A DNA stretch of 64,000 nucleotides, from the NCBI GenBank assembly GCA_018433885.1, contig JAHDQK010000014.1:1-64000 (forward strand). The letters are read 5' to 3'. The stretch is from Candidatus Cloacimonadota bacterium (lineage in GTDB: Bacteria > Cloacimonadota > Cloacimonadia > Cloacimonadales > Cloacimonadaceae). A model generated the notes under the pieces. It did not search any database, was not told the DNA's origin, and saw nothing but the letters and a program-made list of their open reading frames with translations. The translations under genes and the position numbers were made by a program. Positions 12,593 through 16,122 of this stretch are shown piece by piece; position 1 is the first letter of the stretch; each line of letters begins with the position of its first letter.

Positions 12593-13936
12593 TTACTTCT
12601 GTAGAATCATCTTGCGGGATACCGCTCCCTCCGAGCTCTGCATCCTTACAAAATAGATCCCGGAGCTGAGGTCGCGACCACGATCGTCTTTGCCATCAAA
12701 GATGATGGAATGGTTACCAGGAAGCATTTGTCCCACATAAAGATTTCTTACTTGCTGACCCTTTACATTGAACACACTAAGGCTTAACAAAGTAGGGCTA
12801 TTCAATTCGAAGGCAATGTTAGTCTCAGGGTTAAAGGGATTTGGATAGATCCGGATGGCCATTGGAAATGCCGGGCTCATGTCATCCTGGATCGAAGTAA
12901 GCTCGTTATAGGTATTCAGCTGGCGCCACCATGGCACAAGTTCAGAACCTTGCATTTCAGCGGCAGTCCAGCTAAGCGGATTACCATGATCGTCATAGGT
13001 ATAATCTTCCTCTTCCTGGAGTACCCAATCCATGCCATCATAGAACAGATACTGAGAGTTGATCATATTGGAATCATTATCGTAGTTATAGACGTATTTT
13101 CCAATAATATCCCATTCCATTTCTTCACTCAGCTCAAATTCTTGTTCTTCATGGAGCAGAATCTGAGAATGCATATGATAAATATCATGGTCGCCGAAGG
13201 TAACTTGCTTGATCATGAAGTTGTAATAGGTATTGTAATTGCTGGTATCCTGGGGCAAATAGCTGATCAGCGTCTTGGTGAAAGGCATCCAGTCTTCTCC
13301 AAACAATAGCTCGGAGACAACTTCCTGTGCCCTCCCCTGATCGTCCCACGCGAATGAGACACGCATATCAAAGAAGCGATCCCAGTCTGAATATGTATTT
13401 ACTACGTTGCTTAATCTGTTGGTCTCACTATCGTAGAAATAGTTCTGTTCCAGAATCAATGAGGGTTCTTCGGTGTAGTAAGCCCAATGTTGAACATTTT
13501 GGAGGAAGTTACCGTCCCAGCTGTAATCTACTCTTCCATCCATTATCCATTGACTTCCGTCCCACCACTGTTTTACTATTTCAGAGACCTTTCCGTCCTG
13601 TCCGTAAATAGCAGTTTCCTGAATGCTATCGTACCAAATCTCATCTACGGCATCCCAACTTTGGGTAACAAGCATGGTTGGTCTTTGGTAACTGTCGTAT
13701 TCTAGGGTTACCTTGCTGTTGTTGATCCAGTTTCCAAAGTATTCTTGGCTGATATACTCTGTTAGAGCCATTGCCCTTTTGGTAGCAGGAGCTCCGACTG
13801 TTGGGATCAAGCGCCGAATCTCAGCCCGGGCTGTAACTTCCCATTTAGACCCTGAATAATTCTCATGAGCGGCGAACAGCATCGAACTCAGGCTTAGCAG
13901 CAACATGAATGATAGAATGATAGATACTCTCTTCAT
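12593..13936 (-). CDS. Secreted protein with T9SS-type C-terminal sorting domain
   Basis: 447 aa from the ATG at 13936, which gives MKRVSIILSFMLLLSLSSMLFAA, a clear signal peptide, with GAGGAAA upstream. The middle contains repeated Trp/Tyr-rich units of the type YDSxQRP...W...W.Y (about residues 60-350), resembling YD/RHS-like beta repeats. The last 85 residues (IRIYPNPFNPETNIAFEL ... SSGIYFVRMQ) are a FlgD-like Ig domain of the Por/type IX sorting type. It is likely exported and surface-attached or released through the PorU/PorV machinery encoded at 39-45 kb. TTGACA occurs upstream at 14038-14043 (minus). Biological function is unknown. Confidence 0.75.
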   Translation of the reverse strand: MKRVSIILSFMLLLSLSSMLFAAHENYSGSKWEVTARAEIRRLIPTVGAPATKRAMALTEYISQEYFGNWINNSKVTLEYDSYQRPTMLVTQSWDAVDEIWYDSIQETAIYGQDGKVSEIVKQWWDGSQWIMDGRVDYSWDGNFLQNVQHWAYYTEEPSLILEQNYFYDSETNRLSNVVNTYSDWDRFFDMRVSFAWDDQGRAQEVVSELLFGEDWMPFTKTLISYLPQDTSNYNTYYNFMIKQVTFGDHDIYHMHSQILLHEEQEFELSEEMEWDIIGKYVYNYDNDSNMINSQYLFYDGMDWVLQEEEDYTYDDHGNPLSWTAAEMQGSELVPWWRQLNTYNELTSIQDDMSPAFPMAIRIYPNPFNPETNIAFELNSPTLLSLSVFNVKGQQVRNLYVGQMLPGNHSIIFDGKDDRGRDLSSGIYFVRMQSSEGAVSRKMILQK

Positions 13937-14272
13937 GGTTTCCTCTTTCCCTTTCTTTGTTGTAAGCACTCTTGTATCGCCTTGAAAAACAAGGCATGTT
14001 AAACATCCTGATCCCAAACATTTCCGACAGGGATTTCTGTCAAGCCAAAAAGCAAATATGAAACAATTTTAATCCCACGCCAGAGATGTTACTTGTTCCA
14101 CAAAACCTACTTTAAAGTCTCTAAGCCAATATTACTCTTCAGAAACAATATACAGATCATCCTTCAAACGTTCTGTTGAGTATCAAGCAGCTGGCAGGAA
14201 ACATAAGAAAATCTAAGGAGAAAAGACTGCTTGACGGAAAACAGCACTTGGGCATCGTGGTTATGTCACCGA

Positions 14273-14430
14273 GTGGATGGACCTAAACTGCCGAATAGAG
14301 CATGGCCATTCCACCGATAGGGTGCATCCGGAAACAGATGTGCCTTCCAGTGCGAAAAGGTGAATCCACTAGCTTGCGGCATTAGTGCGCTGTATGCTAG
14401 CGTTTCCTTTTCGCATCAACGAAAAGGAGA
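14273..14430 (+). promoter_or_regulatory. Structured 5' leader of P5C dehydrogenase with alternative pairing around the SD
   Basis: Several helices can be drawn: GTGGATGG (14273-14280) with CCATTCCAC (14306-14314); GGTGCATC (14321-14328) with GATGTGCC (14337-14344); CTAGC (14369-14373) with GCTAG (14396-14400). CCTTTTCG (14406-14413) can pair with CGAAAAGG (14420-14427), which contains the SD AAAAGGAG. Alternatively CCTTTTCGCA (14406-14415) pairs over 10 bp with TGCGAAAAGG (14351-14360), freeing the SD. This is the architecture of a translational riboswitch or thermosensor; the ligand is unknown and it matches no class I know. The other part of the 419-nt gap (14018-14272) shows no gene. Confidence 0.5.
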
Positions 14431-14436
14431 TACAAA

Positions 14437-16056
14437 ATGTTCTTTAGCGTACCCGTGCCCAAAAACGAGCCGATCCAAAGTTATGTGCCCGGCTCAACTG
14501 AGCGTAAACTTCTAGAGCAAGAGCTTCAGAAACTCTATGATCAACAGATCGAAATCCCGGCGATAATCGGTGGGAAGGAGATCTTTAGCGGATCCACCGA
14601 AAACTGCATCTGCCCCCACGACCATCAACACATACTTGGCCACTATCACAAAGTGGGTCATTCCGAGATCAGCCAAGCAATCGCTGCCACTAATCAGGTA
14701 AAGAAAGACTGGTCTGAAATGCCATTCTACCATCGATCCGCAATCTTCTTGAAAGCTGCGGAACTACTCTCTACAAAATATCGATTTCTTCTGAACGCAG
14801 CTACCATGCTGGGGCAAAGCAAAAACGTGTATCAGGCAGAAATTGATTCCGCTTGCGAATTGATCGATTTCTGGCGATTCAATGTGTACTTTGCTGAGAA
14901 GATATATGAACAACAACCTCTGATCTCTCCCAAAGGTGAATGGAACTTCAGCGAATATAGAGCCTTGGAAGGCTTTATCTTTGCTGTTACACCTTTCAAT
15001 TTTACCGCTATCGCCGGGAACCTGCCAACCGCCCCTGCCCTGATGGGTAACACAGTAGTTTGGAAACCCTCCGGAACCGCAGTTTATAGTGGCTACTATA
15101 TCATGAAGATCTTGCAGGAATCCGGGCTCCCGGATGGCGTAATCAATTTCATCCCCGGATCAGGCGCACAAATCGGAGACAGTGTATTGGATTCTCCAGA
15201 TCTAGCGGGAGTCCATTTTACCGGTAGCACGGGAGTCTTCAACCAAATCTGGAAACGAACAGCTAACAACATCAACCTCTATAAATCATATCCCAGAATA
15301 GTGGGTGAAACCGGTGGCAAGGATTTCATCGTGGCACACAAATCCGCCGATGTAAGAGCTCTTGCTGTGGCATCCCTGCGCGGAGCATTTGAGTATCAAG
15401 GCCAGAAATGCAGCGCGCTATCCCGGTTGTATATCCCAGACTCACTCTATCCCGCATGGCTGGATCACATGACTGAGATGCTAAGCAGAGTAAAGATGGG
15501 TGATGTCCGTGATTTTGGGAACCTGATAAATGCGGTGATAGACAAAAAGAGCTTTGATAATATCAAGCAATACATCGATTTCGCAAAATCTGCCAGCGAT
15601 GCAGAGATCCTCTGGGGCGGTAACTGCGACGACAGCCAGGGCTATTTCGTAGAACCCACTATCATCAAAACCAATAATCCCAACTTTAAAACGATGCATG
15701 AAGAGATCTTCGGCCCGGTTCTAACGGTGCTCACCTATCCAGAAAATAAGTTCGAGGAGATCCTTTCTGTGTGCGATTCCACTTCTCCCTATGGACTCAC
15801 GGGATCTATCTTTGCCCAAGATCGCAATGCTATCTGCATGGCTTATAACGAGCTAAGACACAGTGCGGGTAATTTCTACATCAACGATAAACCTACCGGC
15901 GCGGTAGTGGGGCAACAACCCTTCGGTGGCTCCAGATCTTCCGGAACAAACGATAAAGCTGGTTCTGCATTGAACCTCCAGCGCTGGATTTCCGCACGCT
16001 CAATAAAGGAAAACTTCGTTCCCGCTACGGACTTCGAGTATCCATTCATGAGATAA
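14437..16056 (+). CDS. pruA: L-glutamate gamma-semialdehyde (1-pyrroline-5-carboxylate) dehydrogenase
   Basis: Oxidises glutamate semialdehyde/P5C to glutamate with NAD+, the last step of proline, ornithine and arginine catabolism. The 539-aa protein is of the long ALDH4-like group: FAVTPFNFTAIAGNLPTAPAL (oxyanion Asn), VHFTGSTGVF (NAD site), general base E291 in VGETGGKD, catalytic C325 in YQGQKCSALSR, and C-terminal GQQPFGGSRSSGTNDKAG. It stands alone, without PutA proline dehydrogenase fused or adjacent. Translation start is ATG with AAAAGGAG 7 nt upstream, inside the alternative hairpin described above. Confidence 0.92.
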   Translation: MFFSVPVPKNEPIQSYVPGSTERKLLEQELQKLYDQQIEIPAIIGGKEIFSGSTENCICPHDHQHILGHYHKVGHSEISQAIAATNQVKKDWSEMPFYHRSAIFLKAAELLSTKYRFLLNAATMLGQSKNVYQAEIDSACELIDFWRFNVYFAEKIYEQQPLISPKGEWNFSEYRALEGFIFAVTPFNFTAIAGNLPTAPALMGNTVVWKPSGTAVYSGYYIMKILQESGLPDGVINFIPGSGAQIGDSVLDSPDLAGVHFTGSTGVFNQIWKRTANNINLYKSYPRIVGETGGKDFIVAHKSADVRALAVASLRGAFEYQGQKCSALSRLYIPDSLYPAWLDHMTEMLSRVKMGDVRDFGNLINAVIDKKSFDNIKQYIDFAKSASDAEILWGGNCDDSQGYFVEPTIIKTNNPNFKTMHEEIFGPVLTVLTYPENKFEEILSVCDSTSPYGLTGSIFAQDRNAICMAYNELRHSAGNFYINDKPTGAVVGQQPFGGSRSSGTNDKAGSALNLQRWISARSIKENFVPATDFEYPFMR

Positions 16057-16082: not shown

Positions 16083-16122
16083 GGGAGAGGAAGTGCTTCA
16101 ACCGCTTTCTCTCCCGCTCCTT
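16083..16122 (+). terminator. Probable terminator after P5C dehydrogenase
   Basis: 11-bp stem GGGAGAGGAAG (16083-16093) / CTTTCTCTCCC (16105-16115) with one G-T pair and an 11-nt loop. The T-tract is poor (GCTCCTTATT), so it may be only partly efficient. Confidence 0.55.

Follow-up and report, generated by a model that had tools for sequence, protein, structure and literature searches.

A P3-less molybdenum/tungsten-cofactor riboswitch precedes a P5C dehydrogenase gene in Cloacimonadota and is proposed to repress it as the cofactor-free backup of a tungsten oxidoreductase

The window—i.e., the whole 64 kb stretch of Candidatus Cloacimonadota DNA analysed here—carries a gene for a P5C dehydrogenase (P5CDH) preceded by a structured leader (Table 1). 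The gene product passes the TIGR01236 equivalog cut-off (815.4 bits vs 613.6) and has 4idm as its best PDB relative (3.6e-187), in line with a preliminary description of the upstream sequence as a P5C dehydrogenase leader. Given the terminator-like hairpin that follows it, the gene is probably transcribed singly. Its divergent neighbour (12593-13936, minus strand) encodes a secreted protein that ends in a sorting tail for type IX secretion.

Table 1 Features of the P5CDH leader and gene in the window
Feature	Position	Strand	Basis
Moco/tungsten-cofactor aptamer, RF01055, P3-less subtype	14255..14378	+	cmscan 54.3 bits, alignment
P1 5′ strand TCACC, partner 14359-14363	14266..14270	+	Rfam alignment
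Switching arm: aptamer 3′ side including P1 3′ strand 14359-14363; partner of 14402-14416 in the open aptamer	14350..14365	+	ligand-free fold; exact 10-mer complement
Hairpin between P1 and anti-SD, stable in both folds	14369..14400	+	folds
Anti-SD segment, common to both exclusive helices	14402..14416	+	folds; kept in relatives
Arm with the SD (core AAGGAG, 14424-14429); masked by 14402-14413 while P1 is closed	14420..14431	+	fold
P5C (delta-1-pyrroline-5-carboxylate / glutamate semialdehyde) dehydrogenase, 539 aa, ATG 14437	14437..16056	+	TIGR01236, PDB 4idm
Terminator-like hairpin 3′ of the P5CDH gene	16083..16115	+	consensus scan

A search of Rfam with cmscan identified the leader as a member of RF01055, the Moco/tungsten-cofactor riboswitch, scoring above the gathering threshold of 36 bits over the full model (positions 1-135). 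The alignment shows stem P2 as well as a GNRA tetraloop together with its receptor, the P4 GAAA tetraloop as CGGAAACAG and the P2 receptor (CCUAA/AUGG) as CCTAAA...CATGG. The P3 stem is missing, its positions being deleted in the alignment, which places the leader in the P3-less subtype; a short junction replaces P3 in 16 of 16 P5CDH leaders of the phylum. P3-less members were linked to the tungsten cofactor (Tuco) by Regulski et al. 2008 (PMC2408646), and the window genome (G000) carries two genes of the aldehyde:ferredoxin oxidoreductase (AOR) family, the tungsten-cofactor enzymes expected for this subtype. RNA class and subtype together suggest the ligand to be the tungsten cofactor rather than Moco (PMC2408646). 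A second RF01055 copy in G000 (contig C79, 31738-31854, minus strand; locus L003) precedes a lipoprotein and a TonB receptor gene. The preliminary description had found no match to a known class and had named proline, ornithine, glutamate or P5C as ligands to probe; the Rfam assignment supplies the class and leaves the amino acids unsupported, as RF01055 senses the molybdenum/tungsten cofactor. The interval it had outlined (14273-14430) does contain the switch segments but starts within the aptamer, whose first bases (from 14255) it omits.

Within this leader, TGCGAAAAGG (14351-14360) is the exact complement of CCTTTTCGCA (14406-14415), which is followed by CGAAAAGG (14420-14427), and the order of a 10-mer, its complement and an 8-mer repeat occurs only once in the 64 kb. 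Folding of the region 3′ of P1 (14368-14448) gave a 12-bp helix, 14402-14413/14420-14431, that hides the Shine-Dalgarno sequence (SD; -30.2 kcal/mol, z -4.7, stability matched by 0 of 200 shuffles). In the whole leader without ligand, 14402-14416 instead pairs with 14350-14365 (-67.2 kcal/mol, z -3.9). Since this ligand-free helix takes up the P1 3′ strand, closure of the aptamer and exposure of the SD are mutually exclusive. Equal overlap of both pairings arose in 25 of 20,000 trials with a dinucleotide-shuffled linker. Counting against the model, the SD, once freed, pairs weakly with the first part of the gene when folding is unconstrained. The mutually exclusive pairings first proposed from the letters are thus real, and so is their riboswitch logic: the two pairings are the expression platform of an RF01055 aptamer for the adjacent gene. 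The arm at 14351-14360 does pair with 14406-14415 as described, yet that it is the 3′ side of the aptamer, including P1, had been missed along with the class.

We then fetched RF01055 loci across a sample of 125 Cloacimonadota genomes (G000-G124, 50 of them from the window's family) and read the genes immediately downstream. RF01055 was present in 75 of the 125, at ~104 places: before a lipoprotein and TonB receptor at 54, before an ECF-type transporter operon at 18, before P5CDH at 16 (the window's included) and before a tungsten AOR at 8. The other 15 leader-bearing P5CDHs are 58-83% identical to that of the window. No RF01055 was found before the remaining P5CDH genes of the phylum, even at lax thresholds, save for copies in G118 (C90), G119 (C7) and G121 (C47), where P5CDH lies divergent from an RF01055-led transporter operon and the copies drive that neighbouring operon. 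In G103 (C31) and G104 (C93), an iron-hydrogenase-like gene lies ~250 bases after RF01055.

The same linker stretch pairs with both the SD and the aptamer arm in 14 of the 16 P5CDH leaders, so that homologous leaders largely keep both alternative arms, as the preliminary description had required; clean exclusive pairing is absent from those of G016 and G017. Compared with most relatives, the window leader carries the same base change in all three arms (TGTGAAAAGG to TGCGAAAAGG, with the anti-SD and SD matching). When linkers were swapped between genomes, pairing was stronger with the own aptamer than with those of other genomes (-14.8 vs -12.1 kcal/mol; 0 of 20,000 permutations), indicating that linker and aptamer have co-evolved. 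With P1 held closed, the SD had a median unpaired probability of 0.03 in P5CDH leaders (shuffled linkers, 0.30) and of 0.00 in those of lipoprotein/TonB genes (shuffled linkers, 0.29). In AOR leaders, by contrast, the SD was not buried (0.61 vs 0.62).

One AOR-family gene in G000 encodes a ~710-aa tungsten aldehyde:ferredoxin oxidoreductase, here termed AOR-B, which we recognised by score band and length rather than by a dedicated model; together with a polyferredoxin gene it lies on contig C37 (3436-5962, minus strand). AOR-B comprises the domains AFOR_N (PF02730) and AFOR_C (PF01314), is accompanied by an adjacent small-subunit gene with Fer4 domains and matches no named family; its layout places it in class II of the tungsten oxidoreductases. 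At L214 (4364-9069), L215 (1403-6122) and in G059 (contig C357), AOR-B comes in two pieces: NuoE/NuoF-like domains are joined to the N-terminal half and a NuoG-like domain to the C-terminal half, the first part in G059 itself forming two genes; this is perhaps an NAD- and ferredoxin-linked form.

Across the phylum, P5CDH was found in 54 and AOR-B in 66 of the 125 genomes, and the two avoid each other (both 16, P5CDH alone 38, AOR-B alone 50, neither 21; p 1e-5), gene absences throughout this study resting on draft genomes and the sensitivity of HMM searches. Within the window's family the corresponding counts were 12, 14, 20 and 4, the four genomes with neither gene being 69-86% complete. Where P5CDH does coexist with AOR-B, it carries the leader in 14 of 16 genomes, against 2 of 38 genomes without AOR-B. 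Among tungsten-using genomes only, the contrast persists (14 of 16 vs 2 of 13, p 1.5e-4). We therefore rejected the leader as a mere marker of tungsten use: P5CDH is leaderless in 11 of the 13 tungsten users lacking AOR-B. The exceptions are G056 and G062, with AOR-B and P5CDH but no leader, and G016 and G019, with the leader but no AOR-B found. The P5CDH tree implies ~6 leader changes; in a tree-corrected test, independent pairs differing in AOR-B either agreed with the leader or showed no difference, so that the direction was as expected, but their number did not suffice for significance (median p 0.125).

As to the source of glutamate semialdehyde, ornithine aminotransferase scored above cut-off in 44 of the 50 family genomes, the six without a full-scoring match including the AOR-B-bearing G044, while classic proline dehydrogenase (PF01619) was found in 0 of 50. 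Ornithine is therefore the likely source, and classic proline dehydrogenase was rejected as a source of P5C.

Outside the phylum, AOR-B is widespread among anaerobes. At nine loci from several bacterial groups it ends operons encoding a SoxA/SoxB-like complex and iron-sulfur proteins. The best structural match of the SoxB-like subunit is 1y56 (302.8 bits), deposited as sarcosine oxidase; this Pyrococcus horikoshii complex is a dye-linked L-proline dehydrogenase. AOR-B adjoins P5CDH at L257, L292 and L299 and lies near ornithine aminotransferase at L254; no RF01055 was found in Bacteroidota genomes near AOR-B/P5CDH pairs. Co-occurrence and operons together point to glutamate semialdehyde as the probable substrate of AOR-B. 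Proline, ornithine and semialdehyde all go unmentioned in a 2026 classification paper (PMC13328260), and a literature search combining semialdehyde, tungsten and ferredoxin oxidoreductase found no paper in the library searched.

RNA class, gene, conserved exclusive pairings and genome co-occurrence were computed directly, and the architecture suggests the direction of the switch to be OFF. We consider it fairly probable that 14255-14436 is a P3-less, Moco-class translational OFF switch and P5CDH the cofactor-free backup of AOR-B acting as a tungsten semialdehyde oxidoreductase. When the tungsten cofactor is scarce, the linker (14402-14416) would pair with the 3′ side of the aptamer and open it, leaving the SD free for synthesis of the NAD-dependent P5CDH, which would then oxidise glutamate semialdehyde. 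When the cofactor is plentiful, the aptamer would close and the freed linker would hide the SD; AOR-B, with its polyferredoxin, would now oxidise the ornithine-derived glutamate semialdehyde.

The same OFF switch might instead serve redox economy or report general tungsten status, the NADH/ferredoxin balance shifting when tungsten enzymes run, with AOR-B acting on other aldehydes. Broad substrate ranges are indeed frequent among AOR-family enzymes (PMC13328260), and the 1y56-like complex next to AOR-B in other phyla has sarcosine oxidase among its relatives, an enzyme whose reaction would yield formaldehyde. Yet we regard this as rather unlikely: among tungsten users the leader goes with AOR-B (14/16 vs 2/13) rather than with tungsten use as such, P5CDH has been lost where AOR-B is kept, and elsewhere AOR-B adjoins P5CDH or lies near ornithine aminotransferase. 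Still less likely is an ON switch, with the SD released by the tungsten cofactor and P5CDH made alongside the tungsten enzymes; such a design would be sensible for the eight AOR genes preceded by RF01055, but closing P1 sequesters the SD of P5CDH leaders, unlike that of AOR leaders, and it is the SD-freeing helix that uses the P1 3′ strand.

That the leader is a relic, inherited with the gene after switching was lost, appears improbable. The weak alternative pairing in G016 and G017 and the RF01055 score of the G019 leader (43.9 bits) would fit such decay, but covariation ties together linker, aptamer arm and SD in the 14 remaining leaders, and the shared base change of the window leader (TGTGAAAAGG to TGCGAAAAGG) extends to all three arms. 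The reading offered at the outset, an amino-acid riboswitch of unknown class or an RNA thermometer, had the role of the gene in proline/ornithine breakdown in its favour; it is now very hard to sustain, given a full-model RF01055 match well over threshold and the presence of the same aptamer throughout the phylum before genes for AORs, oxyanion transport and uptake. Nothing points to a thermometer, as the SD helix does not stand alone but has a conserved aptamer domain upstream.

AOR genes occur in 83 of the 125 phylum genomes despite near-absent molybdopterin synthesis: MoaC was detected in 3, MoeA in 2 and MoaE in 0, and the C-terminal domain of MoaA gave weak matches in 2; among 14 control genomes, 11 scored for each. 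In G058 and G092, which hold most of the molybdopterin pathway, RF01055 precedes oxyanion transporters; in most other RF01055 genomes it precedes lipoprotein/TonB and ECF-type genes. One protein encoded in the ECF-type operon shows an Oxidored_molyb match in 21 of 22 members, and its structural model matches the pterin-binding PruR (E 1e-8). The model of the G000 lipoprotein at L003 (pLDDT 92) also matches PruR best, with a probability of 1.00 but an E of only 0.04. A search for Tup-type tungstate permeases returned a single strong match, the query's own source genome. As modelled, the riboswitch-led TonB receptor, the pterin-binding-fold proteins and the ECF-type transporter may form a cofactor-uptake system through which these genomes import the cofactor, and reliance on such putative uptake would make a cofactor-free backup enzyme useful. 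More broadly, though on balance we stop just short of favouring it, most Cloacimonadota could be molybdopterin auxotrophs importing finished tungsten cofactor, with the Tuco riboswitch running the uptake route (SUOX/PruR-fold lipoprotein, TonB receptor, second pterin-fold protein and ECF-type transporter) and, in the same genomes, repressing P5CDH as the stand-in for a new glutamate-semialdehyde:ferredoxin oxidoreductase.

While the RNA class is already known, its target here is new for RF01055: if the proposal is true, a Moco-class riboswitch switches on an enzyme that does without the cofactor. The association also points to a substrate for AOR-B, a widespread, uncharacterised tungsten enzyme clade, at a time when five of 92 such clades have a defined role according to a 2026 survey (PMC13328260). 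It likewise suggests candidate genes by which bacteria might take up molybdopterin cofactor intact; according to a 2022 paper (PMC9793310), no organism besides C. elegans had been examined for uptake of exogenous Moco or seen to perform it.

The window leader shares the aptamer fold, the conserved core and, as proposed, the translational OFF logic of the E. coli moaA leader, which Regulski et al. 2008 showed to be an OFF switch, and lacks stem P3 like the subtype linked to the tungsten cofactor (PMC2408646). In contrast to moaA, where the SD lies within P1, it has a separate anti-SD segment, and its target is an NAD-dependent dehydrogenase that works without molybdopterin. The predicted folds of the riboswitch-controlled lipoprotein and the second extracytoplasmic protein resemble PruR and the sulfite oxidase fold, but unlike those of PruR-type proteins their genes belong to operons for a TonB receptor or an ECF-type transporter, led by a Moco-class riboswitch. 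Regulation of a backup enzyme is reminiscent of the cobalamin riboswitch on metE, which shuts off the B12-independent methionine synthase, MetE backing up MetH. In both cases a cofactor riboswitch would shut off the cofactor-independent isoenzyme in hosts that may scavenge the cofactor, although cofactor, RNA class and pathway all differ. Finally, PfGAPOR (class I) and CbGOR (class II), which stand in for GAPDH (PMC13328260), provide precedent for a tungsten enzyme and ferredoxin in place of an NAD enzyme. CbGOR shares with AOR-B the class II layout of a large subunit and a four-cluster small subunit; AOR-B differs from both in having no named family, in its proposed substrate, glutamate semialdehyde, and in that the replacement is linked to a riboswitch.
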